Part shown: in pieces, positions 8,637-41,841 of the stretch | Layout of the letters: each line of letters starts with the position of its first letter | Numbering within the stretch: the first letter of the stretch is position 1 | NCBI RefSeq assembly: GCF_947487805.1 | Contig: NZ_CANKXW010000006.1 | Span: 124,001-188,000 of the forward strand | DNA length: 64,000 nt | Direction of reading: 5' to 3' | Source: an uncultured Tateyamaria sp. | Lineage (GTDB): Bacteria; Pseudomonadota; Alphaproteobacteria; Rhodobacterales; Rhodobacteraceae | Program-made: the position numbers and the translations under genes | Notes under the pieces: model-generated | The model's input: the letters and a program-made list of their open reading frames with translations, nothing else | What the model was told of the DNA's origin: nothing | Databases searched by the model: none

Positions 8637-10109
8637 CTAAACGGCTTGGGTCGCGGCAATGGCGCGCTGCCAGCGGGCGTAGCCTTCGGCGCGGGCGTCC
8701 TCGGACATCTCCGGCGCGAACCGGGCCTCGCGCGCCCACGTGGCGGCAAACCCGTCCATGTCGGGATAAATCCCTGCGCGCATACCGGCCAGCCACGCGG
8801 CCCCCAGCGCGGTGGTCTCAAGCCCCGCGGGCCGATCCACCGGCGCGCCCAGCATGTCCGACAGGAACTGCATCGCCCAGTCATTGGCGCTCAGCCCCCC
8901 ATCGACACGCAGCACCGCATCGCCCCCATCGGGCCAGTCCGCACGCATCGCCTCCCACAGATCGCGGGTCTGAAAGCCGATGCTTTCCAGCGCGGCCCGC
9001 GCCATGTCCGCAGGGCCGGTGTCGCGGGTCAGACCAAAGGTGGCGCCCCGGCAATCGGGGTTCCAATAGGGCGCGCCCAGCCCGGTAAAGGCGGGCACAA
9101 GGGTGACGTTACCACTGCCCTGTGCGGCCAGCGCCTGCGTCTCGCTGGCCGTCTGGATCACGCCCAGACCGTCGCGCAACCACTGCACCACGGCACCCGC
9201 GATGAAAATCGAGCCCTCCAGCGCATAGGTCGGCTTGCCGTCCAGCTGATAGGCGACGGTGGTCAGCAATCTGTTTTGCGAGGTCACAGGCGTGTCGCCC
9301 GTGTTCAGCAGCGCAAAGCACCCGGTGCCATAGGTCGATTTCAGCATCCCCGGCGCGAAACAGGCCTGCCCAATCGTCGCCGCCTGTTGGTCCCCCGCCA
9401 CGCCATAGATTGGCGTCTGACCGCCCAGCCGGTCGGTCACACCGAAATCCGACGCGCAATCGCGCACCTCCGGCAGCATCTCGACGGGGATGTCCAGCAT
9501 CGCGCACATCTCGGGGCTCCACGCGCCCTTGTGGATGTCATAAAGCATCGTGCGCGCCGCGTTCGTCGCGTCCGTGACGTGGTTGGCGCGGTCCGTCATG
9601 TGCCAGATCAGGAAACTGTCGACCGTCCCAAACAGCAGCTTGCCCGCCCGCGCCCGGTCGCGCGACCCCTCGTGTTGGTCGAGGATCCACTTGACCTTGG
9701 TGGCCGAGAAATAGGGATCGAGCAGTAGCCCGGTGATCGCCGTCACCTGATCGCCATGGCCCTCGGCCCGCAGCCCCTCGCACATCGCAGCCGTGCGCCG
9801 ATCCTGCCAGACAATCGCATTGTGCAACGGTTCGCCTGTTTCCGCGTCCCAGATCACGGTCGTCTCACGCTGGTTGGTGATGCCGATGGCGGCAATGTCC
9901 GCCGCGCCCAGACCCGTCTTTTCCATCACCGCTTTGCAGGTGGATTTCACCGTATCCAGCAGGTCCTGCGGATTGTGCTCCACCCAGCCACTGTTCGGGA
10001 AATGCTGCGTAAACTCCTCCTGCGCAGAGGCAACAGGGCGCATGTCACCGTCAAAGATGATCGCCCGCGAGGACGTGGTGCCCTGATCAATGGCGAGAAT
10101 ATGGGTCAT
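8637..10109 (-). CDS. glpK: Glycerol kinase
   Basis: 490 residues, the usual length. The N-terminal phosphate-binding motif [10 protein letters not shown] (residues 7-16) and the C-terminal signature around [20 protein letters not shown] (about 340-360) and [20 protein letters not shown] identify the FGGY kinase GlpK. It phosphorylates glycerol to sn-glycerol 3-phosphate in the cytoplasm. Its ATG overlaps the stop of glpD by 4 nt (ATGA), so GlpD and GlpK are made from one mRNA. Confidence 0.96.
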
Positions 10110-35696: not shown

Positions 35697-36392
35697 TCAC
35701 GTAATGATCCGCACCTCGGTCACATCCCCATCCACCTCGCGACAGGCCCCCAGCAGCCGCCGTTCCAGATGGGTCTGCACATAGGCCCCGTGAAACCGCG
35801 ACGGCGCTCGCAGGGTCAACCGTCCCCCGGCCCGCTCCACACGCTCCAGCCCCGCAATCCACGACGCATAAAGTCCCGCATCCTCGCCATGCAGCACCGC
35901 CTGCGCCAGCGCCCATTCCGTGCCCGCGCTCAGATCCGGCGCACGCACATCCCCCTTCACGGGCATCGGCACCACCTTGGCCGTCTCCGGCTCTGCCGCG
36001 CCCATCCGCAATTCGAAATCCGGCCCGACAGCGGCCCAATACGCCTCCGTATCCTGCAACATGCGTTCCAGGTCCAACCCGTGCTCCGTCACCCTGCCCC
36101 GTGCGCCCTGCCGTTTGACCACCAGCCAGCCCCGCGCGCGCAGCAGCGCCATCTCCCGCTTCACCGTCCGCTCGTCCACCGACCATAGACGCGCAATTTC
36201 GCGCTGCCCCACCGCCAGTTCATCCCGCGCCCAGTTGTAGCGCGCCGTCATCAGCGTCAGCAGCCGCAGAACCCGCCGTTGGTCATGTTTGCCCTGCGCC
36301 AGCGCATAGGCACCCAAGGCTGTGATGATGTCATATTTGCGCGCAGACGCGCCCCGGCCCACCGGCCTCAGCGTTTGCATAACTGCCCTCAT
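35697..36392 (-). CDS. DnaA-like plasmid replication initiator (wHTH plus DnaA N-terminal-like domain)
   Basis: 231 residues. The N-terminal half (about 20-110) looks like a winged helix with ELAVGQREIARLWSVDERTV then KREMALLRARGW. The C-terminal 75 residues (EWALAQAVLHGEDAGLYASW, then RLTLRAPSRFHGAYVQTHLE) match the pattern of the DnaA N-terminal oligomerisation domain, W-x-x-pl, L-x-L-x-aP-x-F. There is no AAA+ P-loop. Such DnaA-like initiators next to parAB define a plasmid type known in Rhodobacterales. It is divergent from parA across the putative origin. The start could also be the ATG at 36380. Confidence 0.75.
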   Translation of the reverse strand: MRAVMQTLRPVGRGASARKYDIITALGAYALAQGKHDQRRVLRLLTLMTARYNWARDELAVGQREIARLWSVDERTVKREMALLRARGWLVVKRQGARGRVTEHGLDLERMLQDTEAYWAAVGPDFELRMGAAEPETAKVVPMPVKGDVRAPDLSAGTEWALAQAVLHGEDAGLYASWIAGLERVERAGGRLTLRAPSRFHGAYVQTHLERRLLGACREVDGDVTEVRIIT

Positions 36393-36857
36393 TTCTCGAA
36401 AATGTCCGGGCTGCCCCGGATCACACCTGCCGACGGTTGGTTTTCCACGGTTCTGGCCGCTTTTCCGTCTCTGCCTCTGATTTGCGTCCGATCCCCCGAT
36501 TCTGTCAAGGGGGCATGTGGATAACCCCTGTTCCCAATCCTGTTTCGAATAGAAATCTGGGTATTATTGGTATTGGGGGACACATAGGCTGTCCCCTATT
36601 TTCGCCCCTTTGTCACCCTATGGGATGTGGTCCGCAAAAACCTGTCCCCAAAATATGGCGGCGGTCGCTGCGTTCACCGAATCTCCATATTCCCGCAGTC
36701 CCACAGGACTCACACCCATTCTGTCCCCGCGGGGACAACCATAATCCCCTTTTGCTTTTTCCGCAAAACCGGCGTAAATCTGGAATTGAGCAGAATTAGC
36801 GTCCCCGCGGGGACAAACACCACCTGTCCCCGCGGGGACACGCATCACAGGCAGCGC
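36393..36857. other. Putative replication origin and partition-site region
   Basis: 465-nt gap between the divergent initiator and parA with no credible gene. It holds a perfect DnaA box (TGTGGATAA, 36516-36524), an A/T-rich stretch (about 36541-36575) in a GC-rich genome, two outward-facing half sites GGGGACA and TGTCCCC (36576-36596), another TGTCCCC at 36643, and three copies of the palindrome TGTCCCCGCGGGGACA (one with one mismatch). This is what a plasmid origin with an adjacent centromere looks like, but function is inferred. Confidence 0.6.
36722..36840. repeat. Three TGTCCCCGCGGGGACA palindromes (putative parS) before parA
   Basis: Perfect copies at 36722-36737 and 36825-36840; the copy at 36800-36815 has C instead of the first T. 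They lie in the 5' untranslated region of parA. Confidence 0.85.
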
Positions 36858-38162
36858 ATGTTCACACATTCCGACCTCGCCCAACTCCAGGCCCAGTCCC
36901 TGAAAATGCAGGGCTTCATCCGCCAGCAAACCTACTCGCCCCAAAGCGAAAAGACCCTGCGCCGCTTCTCCAGCTGGGAGGTGGCGGAACTCATCTTCAA
37001 GGCCAACCAATCCACCCTGCGCGGCCGCCTCGCCGCCGACCCCTCCCTGCCCCAAGGCACAGTCGAGGAGGACGGCCGCCAACGCTGGTACTCCCTCGAC
37101 GAGATCAACGAGTTGCGCCGCCGCATCAAGGTCAACCGCAAGACCCTGATGCCCTACCGCCCGGCGAACAAACGCGCCATCCGCGCCGCCATCGCCAACT
37201 TCAAAGGGGGGGCCGGTAAATCCACCACCGCCCTGCACTTCGCCCACGCCGCCGCCCTCGACGGCTACCGCGTGCTCTGTGTCGACTTCGACCCGCAGGC
37301 GACACTCAGCCACTCCATGGGCCTCTCGGACGTGGCCGAGGAATACACCGTCTGGGGCATCATGGCCCGCGACTTGGGCCATGAAACCGACCGCATGAAC
37401 TCCGCCCTTCAGGGCGCGGAATCCGGCACCGCCCTGCCCCAGCGCAAACTGCCCGCGGCGATCACCGACATGGGGCTGAACGACCTGCGCGCCTCCGACT
37501 TCATCAAGCCCACGAACTGGCCCACCATCGACATCGTGCCGTCCTGCGCCAATGCGGCCTTTGTCGAATTCGCCTCCGCCCAGTACCGGCACATCAACCC
37601 CGAATGGTCGTTCTTTGCCGCTGTCTCTCGCTTTCTCGATCAACTCAGCCCAGACGCATACGACCTCATCATCTTCGACTGCCCACCGGCCATCGGCTAC
37701 CAATCCATGAACGCAGTCTTTGCCGCCGACGTGCTCTACATTCCGTCCGGCCCCGGCTACTGGGAATACGATTCCACCACATCCTTCATCGGCCAGCTCT
37801 CCGAGGCGCTCGAGGATCTCAGCCGCTTCAACGGCCTTGTCCCCGCGGGGACAATGGGCCTGCCCAAGTCGTTCCTCGACCTCCGCTTCCTGCTGACCCG
37901 CTACGAGCCGGGCAACGAATTGCACCGCGCCATGCACGGCGCGTTCCAAAAAGTCTTCGGCGACCGCGTCTGCGAACACCCGATCGAGATGACCCGCGCC
38001 GTCGAACAATCGGGTCGCTTTCTCAGCAGCATCTATGAAATTGATTACCGGGACATGACCAGAGAGACCTGGCGCCGCGCCCGCGCGTCTTTCGACCGGG
38101 CGTACGACGAATTCAAAACAAATCTGGGCCAGGCCTGGGACAATCTGGAGGATGAGGCATGA
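36858..38162 (+). CDS. parA: Plasmid partition ATPase ParA
   Basis: 434 residues. An N-terminal helix-turn-helix region (about 30-90, FSSWEVAELIFKANQSTLRG) is followed by the deviant Walker A motif KGGAGKS (116-122) and DFDPQATLS, as in type Ia ParA/RepA partition ATPases with a DNA-binding extension. The ATG at 36858 starts after the palindromes; the upstream open frame from 36627 would translate the palindromes and is rejected. One palindrome (37838-37853) lies inside the gene and encodes LVPAGT (about 327-332). Overlaps parB by ATGA. Confidence 0.88.
   Translation: MFTHSDLAQLQAQSLKMQGFIRQQTYSPQSEKTLRRFSSWEVAELIFKANQSTLRGRLAADPSLPQGTVEEDGRQRWYSLDEINELRRRIKVNRKTLMPYRPANKRAIRAAIANFKGGAGKSTTALHFAHAAALDGYRVLCVDFDPQATLSHSMGLSDVAEEYTVWGIMARDLGHETDRMNSALQGAESGTALPQRKLPAAITDMGLNDLRASDFIKPTNWPTIDIVPSCANAAFVEFASAQYRHINPEWSFFAAVSRFLDQLSPDAYDLIIFDCPPAIGYQSMNAVFAADVLYIPSGPGYWEYDSTTSFIGQLSEALEDLSRFNGLVPAGTMGLPKSFLDLRFLLTRYEPGNELHRAMHGAFQKVFGDRVCEHPIEMTRAVEQSGRFLSSIYEIDYRDMTRETWRRARASFDRAYDEFKTNLGQAWDNLEDEA
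37838..37853. repeat. TGTCCCCGCGGGGACA palindrome inside parA
   Basis: Perfect 16-bp copy, translated as VPAGT in ParA. Confidence 0.9.
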
Positions 38163-39211
38163 GCAAGCGCCGCGTATTCGACATCGACTTTGAACCCGGC
38201 AGCGACGCGCCCGAACCTGCGGCCCCTGCCCCGGAGCCTGCGCGCCGTGGTCCCATGGCCTCTGCCATCTCGGAAAACGCCGAGGCGCTGACCGAACGCG
38301 CCGCCGCCGAGGCTGCGATTCGCGCCGAGAATGACCGCCTCGCCCATGAATACGTCTCGCTGAAACGCGACGGTGCCATCGTGGCGCGCGTGCCCCTCGG
38401 GGACGTCGCCATGACCAAGCTGACGCGCGACCGTGGCACCGGCAACGATCCCGATTTCGAAGAGCTGAAAACCTCGATCCGCGACCTGGGCCTGTCCAAC
38501 CCGATCCAGGTCGAGGACACCGGCGAAGGCTATGAACTGATCCAGGGCTTCCGCCGTCTCAAGGCGCACAAGGCGCTGTTCGAGGAAACCGGCGACGACC
38601 GGTTCGCCACCATCCCCGCCGTGCTGGTGGCCAAGGGCGAGGCGCTGGAAAAACTCTATCGCCGGATGGTCGACGAAAACCTGATCCGCCGCGACATCTC
38701 CTTTGCCGAGATGGGCCAGCTCGCCGCCGCCTATGCCAGCCAGATGGGGCTGGAGGTCAGCGACGCCATCGCCACGCTCTACGCCTCTGCGGGCCGCCAG
38801 AAACGCAGCTACATCGCCCATTTCGCGACGCTGATGTCCCTCATGGGACACAAGCTGCAATACCCCGAGGCGATCCCCCGGTCGCTGGGTCTGCGCCTCT
38901 CCAAGGCTTTTGTCGAAACGCCCAAAGTGCGGCAGCAGCTTGATGCGGTTCTGAACGCGCACCAACCCGAAACACCCGAGGCAGAGCTTGCCTTGCTCAG
39001 CCAGGTGTTGATGCCGCCCGCGGACAAGGCCGCGGCCGGGCCATCCGCCTCGTCCAAGACGACGCTGAAACTCAGCCGCAAGGAAGGCGCGGTCAAGGTT
39101 ACCGGGGCCAAGGGCAAGATCGAATTGCAGATGGATCGCGATTTTGGCGCGGTCGATCCCCGGCGGCTCGAGGTGGCGGTGCGGGCGATGCTGGACGAGT
39201 TGGGGCTGTGA
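38159..39211 (+). CDS. parB: Plasmid partition protein ParB (RepB-like)
   Basis: 350 residues. ParB/Srx-type N-terminal domain at about 85-165 (PDFEELKTSIRDLGLSNPIQ, then YELIQGFRRLKAHKALF) and a helix-turn-helix region (ISFAEMGQLAAAYASQMGLE) at about 180-200; the C-terminus (from about 300) probably dimerises. Expected to bind centromere sites; the palindromes flanking and surrounding the gene are the obvious candidates. ATGA overlap with parA; two palindromes follow its stop within 50 nt. Confidence 0.88.
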   Translation: MSKRRVFDIDFEPGSDAPEPAAPAPEPARRGPMASAISENAEALTERAAAEAAIRAENDRLAHEYVSLKRDGAIVARVPLGDVAMTKLTRDRGTGNDPDFEELKTSIRDLGLSNPIQVEDTGEGYELIQGFRRLKAHKALFEETGDDRFATIPAVLVAKGEALEKLYRRMVDENLIRRDISFAEMGQLAAAYASQMGLEVSDAIATLYASAGRQKRSYIAHFATLMSLMGHKLQYPEAIPRSLGLRLSKAFVETPKVRQQLDAVLNAHQPETPEAELALLSQVLMPPADKAAAGPSASSKTTLKLSRKEGAVKVTGAKGKIELQMDRDFGAVDPRRLEVAVRAMLDELGL

Positions 39212-39212
39212 T

Positions 39213-39258
39213 TGTCCCCGCGGGGACACGCGCGCATTGATCTGTCCCCGCGGGGACA
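39213..39258. repeat. Two TGTCCCCGCGGGGACA palindromes after parB
   Basis: Perfect copies at 39213-39228 and 39243-39258, 14 nt apart, between the convergent parB and bchO genes. Confidence 0.9.
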
Positions 39259-39267
39259 GATGCGTCT

Positions 39268-40140
39268 CTAACCCGTCATATCCTGGATAAGTTCGAGGAT
39301 CAGGCCCGCCACTTCGGCGGGCTTTTCTTCGTGCGCAAGGTGGCCGAGGCCCGGCAGGTTCGTGACGGTCGCATCGGCCATATCGCGCGCGGCATCCAAC
39401 GATACGGTGGGCGGCACGGTCTTGTCCCGCTCGCCCACGATAAACCGCACCGGCCCGTCATGTCCCGGCAGGGCGCGCAACAGCGGCGGCAGCTTCCATT
39501 GCGACATCATCAAAAGCGTGCCATTCACATGGTCCCGGTCGCCCACAAGGCAGCGGTACAGCTCCAGCCCTTCGGCATCCAGATTAGACCCTGTTGAGCC
39601 GATCAGAGCCTCGATCCGTGCAGGGTTGGCCGATGCGCCAGAGAACAGGCTGGCCGTGAACGGCATCGCCGCCAGCGCCTTGGCCATCACCGGAAAGACA
39701 AGGCCGGCCAGCCCCGGAAACTCACCCAAGGCGGCGTTGATCCCGATGACATTTGGCGTCTGTCCCCGCGGGGACAGATCGGCTTGCGCCATGCGCAGGG
39801 CAATCGCACACCCCGCCGAATGCCCGACGATTGTGGTGGGGCTCCAGCCCTCCTGCCCGCACAGCGCCGCGATGTCCGTGGCCATCGGGTCCAGCCCGCA
39901 ACGATGCCGCGCGCCCAGCTGTGTGAACCCCTGTCCCGGCAGGTCCAGCGCCACCACGTGATGCGAGGCCGCCAGCAGCGGGATAATGTGCCGGAACGAA
40001 TGCGTCGACCCGCCCGCGCCGTGCAGCAACAGGATCGTGTCACCCATCCCCGTTTCCTGGATATGCCACCGATGCACCGGCCCCTGTCCCCGCCGGGACA
40101 GCGTGGCGTTTGGCCAGGTGTCGATGTGATCCCACTGCAT
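39268..40140 (-). CDS. bchO: BchO, alpha/beta hydrolase of the bchID operon
   Basis: 290 residues. Alpha/beta hydrolase fold with oxyanion loop LLLHGAGGSTHSF (38-49), nucleophile elbow GHSAG (Ser108) and a C-terminal LGHLAHEEKP histidine. BchO is associated with magnesium chelatase genes, role not settled. Residues 122-127 (LSPRGQ) come from a perfect copy of the palindrome (39761-39776) and residues 14-19 (LSRRGQ) from a one-mismatch copy (40085-40100). Lies 3 nt downstream of bchD in crtA-bchI-bchD-bchO. Confidence 0.9.
   Translation of the reverse strand: MQWDHIDTWPNATLSRRGQGPVHRWHIQETGMGDTILLLHGAGGSTHSFRHIIPLLAASHHVVALDLPGQGFTQLGARHRCGLDPMATDIAALCGQEGWSPTTIVGHSAGCAIALRMAQADLSPRGQTPNVIGINAALGEFPGLAGLVFPVMAKALAAMPFTASLFSGASANPARIEALIGSTGSNLDAEGLELYRCLVGDRDHVNGTLLMMSQWKLPPLLRALPGHDGPVRFIVGERDKTVPPTVSLDAARDMADATVTNLPGLGHLAHEEKPAEVAGLILELIQDMTG
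39761..39776. repeat. TGTCCCCGCGGGGACA palindrome inside bchO
   Basis: Perfect 16-bp copy, translated on the minus strand as SPRGQ. Confidence 0.9.
40085..40100. repeat. One-mismatch palindrome inside bchO
   Basis: TGTCCCCGCCGGGACA, one base from the consensus, near the bchO start. A more decayed version may be at 40295-40310 in bchD. Confidence 0.6.
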
Positions 40141-40143
40141 CGC

Positions 40144-41790
40144 TCAGTCGTCCAGGGCGGCGGTGACGGCCCCGGTAAGCTTGTGCGCATCGGCGCGGGG
40201 CAGGGCGATGTAGGGTGCGTCGAGCGTGATGGCGAGGGCTTGCAGCGTGGGCTGTGGCCGGTTGGACATGTCGATCACCAGCGCGGCGACTCCCTGTCCC
40301 CGTAGGGCCGCCGCCATCTGCGTCGCATCTGCGCCTGCTTGTGCGCGGTTGGCCGTCCCGTCGAGCGCGATGTTTGCGCGCCCGTCTGTGATCAGGACAA
40401 CCGTGGGGGTCAGTCCTTTGGATCGATTTTGCATCGCGGTCAGCATCGCGGTCTGGAGCCCTGTCGCGAGTGGCGTTCCCCCGCCGCCGGGCAGGGCGGA
40501 GAGGCGACGTTTGGTCTGGACCAGAGACCGCGTCGGTGGCAGCAGCGTTTCCGCCTCGGTGCCTCGGAAGGAGATCAGCGTGACGTGGTCGCGGCTGGCA
40601 TAGGCTTCGGCCAGCAGGAGTTCAATGGCACCTTTGGCCTCGCCCAGCCGGGATACTGCGGCAGAGCCCGAGGCGTCCACGCAGAACACGAGCAGACGGT
40701 CGGAGTGTTCGGCGTAGCGCTTGAGGCGGATGTCTGCGGGGGTGATCAGCAAACCAGTGCGGTCTGGTTGCTGTTGACGCCGGAGCGGTTGCCAAGGGGC
40801 TGCGGCGCGCAGGGTGGCGATCAGGTCGATGCGGGAGGTGCCGTCGAGCCGCCCGGGCCGCGAGGGGAGCGGGCGACCGCGGCGGTTGGAGGTGCGCTTT
40901 TGCCCCGCGCCGGAGCCTTGGGATGTCCGGGTTGTCCCCGCGGGGACAAGGCCGTCCAGCAGGTTTTTGGGGAGCAGGGATTTGACCGCGTCAATGAGCA
41001 TATCGCCATCGGGGAGCGCGTCGTTTTCATCGCTGTCCCCGCGGGGACAGTCGTCCTGTTCCGCTGGTGGCGGGGGTGGCGGATCGCCTGTCGTGTCGTC
41101 CTCGGGGACCACTGTCGCGCGGTGGGGGTAGACGAGGGACGCGGCGACTTTGAGGTCGGTGTCGGTGAGGTGCGTGCGGTCCATTAACACTGCATGGGCG
41201 CGGGCGGTGCGCAGGGCCAATGTAGGGGCGCGCAGAGATGTGATGCCGAAACGTGCGGCGAGAAGGGTCAGTTGCACAACGGCGTCGGCGGTTGAAATCT
41301 CTGTCCCCGCGGGGACAGAGGGGGGTGTCCCCGCGGGGACAGGGGGTCTGCGGCCCTCGGGAGCGAGGTGGAATGCGCAGCGGTCGGCGAGGGCGTCGGG
41401 GGTGCGTTCGTCGGCCTCGATGCCCTCGTCGATCAGCAAAAAACCCTTTGTTAGAGCCTGATCCGCGAGTTGGGAGAGCTTGGCCGCGAGGGCAGGGGGG
41501 CAGCGTTCGGCCATGGGAACCTGGGCGATACAGGGCATGTGAAAAAATGATTTATTTTCAATGACTTGCGAGGATGCGAGCGTCGCGCTCAGGTCGATGC
41601 CGCCGAAAAGCTGTTCGTCGGAGATGGTGATGGGCAGTTTGCGGACGGGCAGGGCGGGGCGGAAGCTGGCGAGCAGGGCGTCGCGGTCGGGGCTGGCGCG
41701 CATGCGGATGACCGCGCCGCCGAGCCCTGCGGGGTCCACGGCCAGCAGGCGCAGGGCCAGGGCGGCGTTATGCCAGCTTTCGGCGGTCAT
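40144..41790 (-). CDS. bchD: Magnesium chelatase subunit D
   Basis: 548 residues from MTAESWHNAALALRLLAVDP. A degenerate AAA-like N-terminal half, a proline/acidic linker (about 235-275) and a C-terminal von Willebrand A domain with the metal site DASGSAAVSR. Forms the ring with BchI that drives Mg insertion by BchH. Four perfect palindromes are in frame: residues about 150-163 (VPAGTPPSVPAGT), 248-252 (CPRGD) and 281-286 (LVPAGT). The start at 41790 lacks a strong ribosome site; the ATG at 41835 lies in a repeat and is rejected. Confidence 0.94.
   Translation of the reverse strand: MTAESWHNAALALRLLAVDPAGLGGAVIRMRASPDRDALLASFRPALPVRKLPITISDEQLFGGIDLSATLASSQVIENKSFFHMPCIAQVPMAERCPPALAAKLSQLADQALTKGFLLIDEGIEADERTPDALADRCAFHLAPEGRRPPVPAGTPPSVPAGTEISTADAVVQLTLLAARFGITSLRAPTLALRTARAHAVLMDRTHLTDTDLKVAASLVYPHRATVVPEDDTTGDPPPPPPAEQDDCPRGDSDENDALPDGDMLIDAVKSLLPKNLLDGLVPAGTTRTSQGSGAGQKRTSNRRGRPLPSRPGRLDGTSRIDLIATLRAAAPWQPLRRQQQPDRTGLLITPADIRLKRYAEHSDRLLVFCVDASGSAAVSRLGEAKGAIELLLAEAYASRDHVTLISFRGTEAETLLPPTRSLVQTKRRLSALPGGGGTPLATGLQTAMLTAMQNRSKGLTPTVVLITDGRANIALDGTANRAQAGADATQMAAALRGQGVAALVIDMSNRPQPTLQALAITLDAPYIALPRADAHKLTGAVTAALDD
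40933..41049. repeat. Two TGTCCCCGCGGGGACA palindromes in the bchD linker region
   Basis: Perfect copies at 40933-40948 and 41034-41049, read in different frames (VPAGT and CPRGD) in the linker of BchD. Confidence 0.9.
41302..41341. repeat. Two adjacent TGTCCCCGCGGGGACA palindromes in bchD
   Basis: Perfect copies at 41302-41317 and 41326-41341, 8 nt apart, translated as VPAGTPPSVPAGT. Confidence 0.9.
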
Positions 41791-41817
41791 CGTGTTGCGG
41801 CGTTTGTTTGGGTGTTT

Positions 41818-41841
41818 GGTGGGCAAATTGCCCACCCTACG
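41818..41841. repeat. GGTGGGCA-type palindromic repeat between bchI and bchD
   Basis: GGTGGGCAAATTGCCCACCC followed by TACG, in the 73-nt gap inside the crtA-bchIDO operon. Confidence 0.85.

Follow-up and report, generated by a model that had tools for sequence, protein, structure and literature searches.

A 16-bp palindrome around parAB of a DnaA-like I photosynthesis replicon and its dispersal over Tateyamaria genomes as putative ParB sites

Which protein reads a 16-bp palindrome that crowds around a partition locus, runs into the neighbouring photosynthesis genes and recurs over the rest of the genome? The question is raised by a 64-kb stretch of DNA from an uncultured Tateyamaria sp. (Rhodobacteraceae; contig NZ_CANKXW010000006.1, positions 124,001 to 188,000), here called the window, which was scanned as a whole. 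The palindrome, TGTCCCCGCGGGGACA, referred to below as the word, occurs there in 10 exact and two one-mismatch copies, all within 4.6 kb (36722-41341) that span the parA-parB-bchO-bchD region. It is probable that the word is the parS site of a DnaA-like I ParB, that the array is a centromere, and that the chromosomal copies were recruited for the loading of ParB. The word is assigned to this ParB subfamily because it tracks ParB across the genus and the family. The copies in the window are the following.

36722..36737, no strand, exact 16-mer, 5' of parA
36800..36815, no strand, one-mismatch copy CGTCCCCGCGGGGACA, 5' of parA
36825..36840, no strand, exact 16-mer, ends 17 bp before the parA start
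37838..37853, no strand, exact 16-mer, within parA, read VPAGT
39213..39228, no strand, exact 16-mer, 1 bp past parB
39243..39258, no strand, exact 16-mer, in the parB/bchO gap, 30 bp from the preceding copy
39761..39776, no strand, exact 16-mer, within bchO, read SPRGQ
40085..40100, no strand, one-mismatch copy TGTCCCCGCCGGGACA, within bchO
40933..40948, no strand, exact 16-mer, within bchD, read VPAGT
41034..41049, no strand, exact 16-mer, within bchD, read CPRGD
41302..41317, no strand, exact 16-mer, within bchD, read VPAGT
41326..41341, no strand, exact 16-mer, within bchD, read VPAGT, 24 bp from the preceding copy

Outside the array the window holds no further copy with up to two mismatches, and the only two matches with three mismatches (13420 and 24180) are at chance level. 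Matches with up to three mismatches number 14, as opposed to a mean of 1.06 (largest 3) in shuffled windows, and none of 100 shuffles reached 14. Rescanning returned every position given for the 10 perfect and two one-mismatch copies in a preliminary description of this DNA. Its remark that the spacing is irregular also holds: successive exact copies are 24 to 1,375 bp apart, which rules out a CRISPR (clustered regularly interspaced short palindromic repeats) or tandem array. Of the exact copies, four are intergenic and six are genic (four in bchD, one each in parA and bchO); the genic ones are read in three frames, in line with the earlier view that the DNA word and not the peptide is kept in these three genes. 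A chance origin of the word is ruled out by the shuffles, the genome count and the Markov expectation given below. Between neighbouring copies in the window and its relatives, spacings of 24, 30-34, 66-69 and 101-105 bp are frequent, with counts inflated by orthologous arrays.

The whole genome (G000) contains 66 exact copies and 76 with at most one mismatch, while the reversed-letter control gave none. The preliminary description had confined the word to less than 5 kb, which is correct for the window but not for the genome, where it overlooked 56 exact copies outside the array. It had also named genome-wide copies as a sign against a centromere; such copies do exist, but the array, with 10 copies in 4.6 kb against about 13.5 per Mb elsewhere, is about 160-fold denser, and the association with ParB is unaffected. 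In 1.25 Mb of sampled Tateyamaria DNA, chosen around sites, a third-order Markov model predicts 0.0005 copies and 69 are present. These copies, from G000 and a second Tateyamaria genome (G003), comprise 39 genic and 30 noncoding ones, while noncoding DNA makes up 9.5% of the same sample (p 1.5e-13). Genic and noncoding calls, here and for other genera, come from our own codon-score gene caller trained on Tateyamaria DNA. Nine site-bearing G000 genes, out of 25 genic G000 copies in hand, were scanned for a functional theme and none emerged: six gave mixed matches (dxs, an acyl-CoA ligase, a sugar kinase, mnmC2, S-formylglutathione hydrolase and nuoE) and three had no match at E<=1e-20.

The closed chromosome of Tateyamaria omphalii allows the distribution to be viewed along a replicon. 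Its GC skew switches sign near 1.42 Mb and again between 3.06 and 3.39 Mb, and the origin and terminus were placed from this skew alone. Of 55 copies in the genome 41 were placed on the chromosome and four remained unplaced. The 41 copies are spaced like random points (coefficient of variation, CV, 1.04) and fall in the arm quarters, from terminus to origin, as 15, 9, 6 and 11 (Rayleigh p 0.15), so no depletion of copies at the terminus was found on this chromosome.

The occurrence of the word follows that of ParB closely. Among 20 Tateyamaria genomes, 12 contain 22-95 copies (hereafter word-rich), two (G006 and G011, the latter T. pelophila) contain two, and six contain none, the copy numbers falling into steps of 2, 22 and 51-95. 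All 14 word-bearing genomes, and none of the six word-free ones, have an orthologue of ParB (71% identity or more). In a family sample of 394 genomes, nearly all of different genera, 34 contain the word and 95 a ParB at E<=1e-60; the word is found in 33 of these 95 and in one of the 299 others (Fisher p 8e-22), and this lone exception (G289) has a ParB scoring 5e-54. Outside Tateyamaria, ParBs of at least 323 bits are accompanied by the word in 26 of 29 cases and weaker ParBs in 6 of 65. The three genomes with a close ParB and no exact word (G118, G159, G377) have one- or two-mismatch versions of it beside parB. The ParB-bound centromere proposed in the preliminary description thus gains comparative support in that the word tracks the ParB subfamily, and it is likely that the dispersed copies are read by the same ParB as the array.

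A scan of 84,980 species genomes gave at least 115 stretches with the word; among the matches listed, most are from Tateyamaria and other Rhodobacterales, and unrelated bacteria have single or repeat-borne copies. One metagenome-assembled genome of Dysgonamonadaceae has three copies with similar flanks in 142 bp (L053 350-491), probably a repetitive gene unrelated to ParB. The canonical chromosomal parS pattern had no match in 385 loci, a set with few chromosome origins, so that this result says little.

The genes around the array are arranged as in DnaA-like I replicons, with parA and parB adjacent (35697-39211 with the initiator, whose match is weak and below cut-off).

35697..36392, minus strand, candidate DnaA-like I replication initiator (P0002), matching DnaA_N weakly (E 4.4e-4, under the Pfam cut-off)
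36858..38162, plus strand, parA (P0003), Walker-type partition ATPase (AAA_31, E 3.3e-25; TIGR03453 partition_RepA, E 1.4e-63, under cut-off)
38159..39211, plus strand, parB (P0001), putative word binder (ParB_N PF02195, E 3e-5, 24.4 bits, cut-off 26.3)
39268..40140, minus strand, bchO (TIGR03056, 330.9 bits, cut-off 172.55)
40144..41835, minus strand, bchD (NF009943, 635.6 bits, cut-off 571)

The ParB assignment of P0001 is in line with its matches to the Spo0J structure 1vz0 (E 7.8e-7 over residues 68-228) and to TIGR00180 (E 2e-7, under cut-off), and its profile extends to Noc (7ol9, E 8e-5). The stretch matched on plasmids of Leisingera and Phaeobacter includes a DnaA N-terminal domain-containing protein. 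Partition modules of DnaA-like I plasmids of Rhodobacterales were reportedly described by Petersen et al. in 2011 and 2012. The closest plasmid record is pDOK1-4-3 of T. omphalii DOK1-4, which matches 98% of a 7.3-kb query at 79% identity and is annotated there with an AAA family ATPase, a ParB/RepB/Spo0J family partition protein, BchO, magnesium chelatase subunit D and BchI. In the available text of PMC6739100, strain DOK1-4 is among those whose photosynthesis gene cluster replicons are termed DnaA-like I. According to the parts of PMC6052148 and PMC6739100 at hand, Tateyamaria, Roseobacter, Nereida and others carry the DnaA-like I module at one fixed place within the photosynthesis cluster. 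The setting of the array is a known kind, the DnaA-like I photosynthesis replicon of Tateyamaria, and the repeated palindrome near parAB, as expected of a parABS system, is shared by relatives of the replicon; from the sequence it is very likely that the local array is the parS of this replicon. The earlier idea of a centromere that invaded chlorophyll genes is therefore partly already published, as the conserved location of the DnaA-like I module inside the photosynthesis cluster (the same portions of PMC6052148 and PMC6739100).

Copies differ in how strictly they are conserved. At the array, places are largely kept in the other word-rich Tateyamaria genomes, with 6 to 11 exact copies in the stretches compared, two or three of which end at contig ends; G006 and G011 have two exact copies and some decayed ones. 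The parA copy at 37838 is matched by words with similar flanks in loci of other genera (L025, L056, L113, L123), which judging by these flanks are probably at the same place in parA. The variant TGTCCCCGCCGGGACA at 40085 is unchanged in 11 of the 12 word-rich genomes, with two mismatches in the twelfth (G004), and may be a weaker site or be held by protein constraint. In the parB of seven loci (L033, L037, L044, L071, L123, L127, L137), an exact word, read VPAGT, lies in the variable linker after the N-terminal FDIDF/FDINF; the ParBs of L113 and L132 have VPAGT or FPAGT in that linker with no exact word.

On the chromosome, 15 copies of G003 lie at the same place as a G000 copy, a count biased upward since both sides were picked for having words (the labels G012 and KCTC12333 denote the same genome). 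A comparison of three positions across the genus has no such bias on the target side. All 12 word-rich genomes have the intergenic copy at C1:2957582 of G003 in exact form, and outside the reference its flanks are 62-88% identical; the seven other genomes with the locus lack the copy and show nothing alignable in its place. In G006, the sequence that follows the gap at this position starts with tgtcccc, perhaps a remnant. The genic copy at 2958790 is exact in two of the 12, carries one mismatch in four and 3-7 mismatches in six, and the genic copy at C1:202284 of G000 is exact in six and carries 2-8 mismatches in the other six. Thus some copies are strictly kept and others are gained and lost, and selection on at least some of the dispersed copies is likely. 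At the two genic positions, word-free orthologues show substitutions and no alignment gaps, which lends no support to insertion of a 16-bp element. A two-gene tree unites 11 word-rich genomes in one clade (support 92/92) and leaves G014 (22 copies), G006 and G011 outside it.

Outside Tateyamaria, two genomes are word-rich: Actibacterium sp. 188UL27-1 (G106), with 79 copies, and Pseudorhodobacter sp. PARRP1 (G289), with 62. The Actibacterium parB (L304 12288-13199) stands beside bchI-bchD-bchO (525.0, 695.5 and 322.9 bits for bchI, bchD and bchO, cut-offs 466.95, 571 and 172.55) in the same convergent order as in the window. Neither parA nor an initiator adjoins it, the next three genes being two without a family match and one of the PhzF family. 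The Pseudorhodobacter parB adjoins an unrelated repABC operon. Whole-genome searches found no cognate ParA in either genome: the best matches are 59% in Actibacterium, beside a different parB, and a partial 46% in Pseudorhodobacter, as opposed to 94% and 85% in two module-bearing genomes. In an alignment of 47 ParBs, a block of invariant residues within the first 72 positions (KxRxFxIxF, RRGPMAxAI, END) is present in 45, which were aligned irrespective of adjacency to parA, and missing from these two, while the core motifs LSNPI, QGxRR, DENLxR and the SxxRQ region are kept in both. In each of the two genomes, one copy of the word lies within parB and another next to it. Their ParBs form long branches of unsure placement in the ParB tree. 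As worded in the accessible text of a survey of the ParB fold, an "orphan ParB" is a homologue outside a parAB operon, and the ParA-binding motif is enriched in ParBs whose genes lie near parA (PMC12704722). The Actibacterium orphan beside bchO looks like a trace left when a photosynthesis cluster departed from a DnaA-like I plasmid, which fits the reintegration scenario in the available part of PMC6052148.

The copies in the two orphan genomes are placed differently. In Pseudorhodobacter, 35 of 37 distinct copies examined (62 in all) are intergenic, 23 of the 35 between convergent genes, and a longer motif, CACAAGTC or TACAGAGAT, extends on one side (flank information 18.1 vs 5.6+-0.3; loci L036, L057, L062, L069, L110, L111, L120, L306, L312, L314-L316 and L386-L405). 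In Actibacterium, 10 of 14 copies examined (79 in all) are genic. This difference in placement suggests that the routes of spread may differ between lineages. The extended motif, strong in Pseudorhodobacter, is modest in Tateyamaria, where flank information is 11.3 vs 9.5+-0.7 for intergenic and 12.2 vs 10.4+-0.6 for genic copies of G000, and 11.9 vs 9.4+-0.8 and 9.3 vs 8.2+-0.4, respectively, for those of G003. Of 32 sites compared between Tateyamaria and the two orphan genera, 13 have a similar stretch in the loci compared; one such stretch (L055) lies near two Tateyamaria sites, which need not be homologous.

These observations can be arranged in a scheme that is, overall, probable. The 16-mer would be the parS of the ParB encoded at 38159-39211, the 10 exact and two imperfect copies around parAB and in bchO and bchD would form the centromere array, and ParA and ParB would segregate the photosynthesis chromid. 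The same word would then have accumulated on the main chromosome of 12 of the 20 Tateyamaria, at least partly by point mutation kept by selection, and ParB would probably load at roughly 15 to 85 chromosomal places too. Actibacterium and Pseudorhodobacter would have lost the cognate ParA and, within ParB, the N-terminal block that presumably faces ParA, while keeping parB and the words. The retention of parB with dozens of words in the absence of both suggests a job other than plasmid partition, that is, a plasmid partition protein recruited for a chromosome-wide one. Candidate jobs are the organisation of the nucleoid, or a link between the chromosome and the chromid, the membrane or division, in a step comparable to that from ParB to Noc; chromosome-wide loading of ParB clamps for nucleoid organisation or chromid coupling is favoured. 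Three stages could be distinguished: the word on the plasmid only (G011, G006), chromosome-wide with ParA (12 Tateyamaria), and after loss of the cognate ParA and the ParB N-terminal block (Actibacterium, Pseudorhodobacter). Whether this amounts to a second, independent Noc-like chromosome-wide ParB system, arisen in Alphaproteobacteria from a plasmid centromere protein and caught at several stages, is a tentative proposal, possible and still rather doubtful.

The chromosomal copies could instead be functionless leftovers of a local parS array. DnaA-like I photosynthesis chromids and palindromic anchors of RepABC plasmids are known kinds, the T. omphalii copies are spaced at random, and two of three positions compared show turnover. 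Neutral decay, however, would hardly leave 66 exact against 10 one-mismatch copies in the genome, nor one intergenic copy perfect in 12 of 12 word-rich genomes; together with the noncoding excess (30 of 69 copies) and the two word-rich genomes that keep parB and lack its parA, this makes inert scatter improbable. That a different chromosomal DNA-binding protein reads the word, the plasmid array being a borrowed or coincidental use, would agree with the comparative basis of the ParB assignment, with the two words of ParB-bearing G006 and G011, and with the longer flanking motif in Pseudorhodobacter. Such a reader is quite improbable given that the word is missing from the six Tateyamaria and from 298 of the 299 family genomes that lack this ParB, and that both orphan genomes hold copies within and beside parB. 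The palindrome might also work as RNA, as the stem-loop of bidirectional terminators. In Pseudorhodobacter, 23 of 35 intergenic copies are in convergent gaps, which make up 7,820 of 28,724 bp (gaps of at least 40 bp in the same stretches); some copies elsewhere extend to longer inverted repeats with T runs (L084, L066); one window copy scores terminator-like (36840-36825); and the pair of copies at 39213/39243 lies in a stretch with strong RNA folding (z -5.8), a property expected of any inverted repeat. Yet 55 of 100 Tateyamaria copies examined are genic, the flanks of the 45 intergenic ones are complementary in 27 of 45 at +-1 and in only 6 to 17 of 45 further out, the region has three terminator-like sites where 4.4 are expected, and the link to ParB is left unexplained, which makes this idea very improbable.

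An unlikely possibility is that the chromosomal copies act in trans, either tethering the chromid so that it travels with the chromosome or serving as decoys against incoming DnaA-like I plasmids, which they would exclude. In Agrobacterium, contacts between replicons that are mediated by ParB are known (in the available text of PMC9239152), and a ParB of this subfamily is kept in word-rich genomes even where the cognate parA is absent, but the tests made here do not set trans action apart from chromosome organisation. Several points weigh against the parS reading with recruited chromosomal copies. Eleven of the 12 word-rich Tateyamaria fall into a single clade of the two-gene tree, so that few independent events lie behind the association. 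G006 and G011 have the ParB orthologue yet two words each, and since in the ParB tree G006 groups with the word-rich G000 and G018 (93/85) and G011 with G014 (89/86), dispersal is not an inevitable consequence of having this ParB. At two of the three positions compared, the word is exact in just two and six of 12 genomes, so many single sites appear dispensable. The Pseudorhodobacter genome is one metagenome assembly, and its longer conserved flanks may reflect spread by a repeat element. A RepA/RepB-type partition pair (L382) lies on the same contig as the window, and ParB is the only candidate reader of the word examined. Finally, the binding of ParB, its cytidine triphosphate (CTP)-dependent clamping, what the N-terminal block does and the function on the chromosome are all inferred from sequence.

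Noc, with its 16-bp binding site, is the textbook example of a partition protein that became a regulator of the whole chromosome, and it arose far back in the history of Firmicutes. The same kind of step seems more recent here, in cultured marine bacteria with close relatives before and after it and intermediate word counts. Should the scheme hold, the role of dispersed parS sites, the order of site spread and ParA loss, and the binding of the photosynthesis chromid to the chromosome through the words become testable. As in the Noc system of Firmicutes, in the parts of PMC7383237 and PMC4331003 available, there is a ParB-family origin and palindromic sites on the chromosome, about 70 for Noc against 56 outside the cluster in this genome and 41 on the T. 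omphalii chromosome. A divergent N-terminus is shared by the two orphan ParBs only; the Tateyamaria ParB keeps its N-terminus and parA. By eye, there is no clear amphipathic N-terminus. Other differences are the alphaproteobacterial host, the identity of the chromosomal word with that of the plasmid, and the lack of terminus depletion in T. omphalii. According to the same portions of PMC4331003 and PMC7383237, Noc and SlmA sites avoid the terminus, so the presence of T. omphalii copies near it speaks against nucleoid occlusion of the Noc or SlmA type. The Noc model TIGR04285 (cut-off 315) gives 32.7 bits for P0001 and 36.3 for the Actibacterium orphan, with no match listed for the Pseudorhodobacter one. 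By analogy, the system thus resembles the early history of Noc in some respects, and fails the curated model and terminus avoidance.

HIP1 of cyanobacteria is likewise an over-represented exact palindrome in and between genes; it is 8 bp long, far denser, and has no linked partition gene. VirB of Shigella is a plasmid-borne ParB-family protein, and neither for it nor for KorB of RK2 do we know of an array of dozens of exact sites on the host chromosome. Both share with the present case ParB-family membership and roles beyond partition, as far as the text of PMC12704722 (for KorB also PMC7022226) extends. The ParB of P. aeruginosa, in the portion of PMC7022226 available, is also found at many chromosomal places; it binds 7-bp half-parS sites that are common in genomes, whereas full exact 16-mers far above chance are observed here. 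The published DnaA-like I modules share the initiator-parA-parB order, the place in the photosynthesis cluster beside bchIDO and the host group, and differ in two respects not mentioned in the available text of PMC6052148 and PMC6739100, the chromosomal dispersal of the parS-like word and the orphan parB genes. The letters of the 16-mer were absent from the papers searched, and the available text of the papers cited does not mention chromosomal dispersal, with most of the subscription literature outside the search.

The contig of the window (G000 C6) is 224 kb long. From window position 8637 to about 22.5 kb past the window end it is colinear with pDOK1-4-3, while that plasmid matches neither its first 20 kb nor the 20 kb that precede the window. 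The part unlike pDOK1-4-3 (L382, L383) carries the RepA/RepB-type partition pair, a Phd/YefM antitoxin and a Tn3 transposase. The contig seems to be a fusion of pDOK1-4-3-like DNA with RepA/RepB-bearing DNA.

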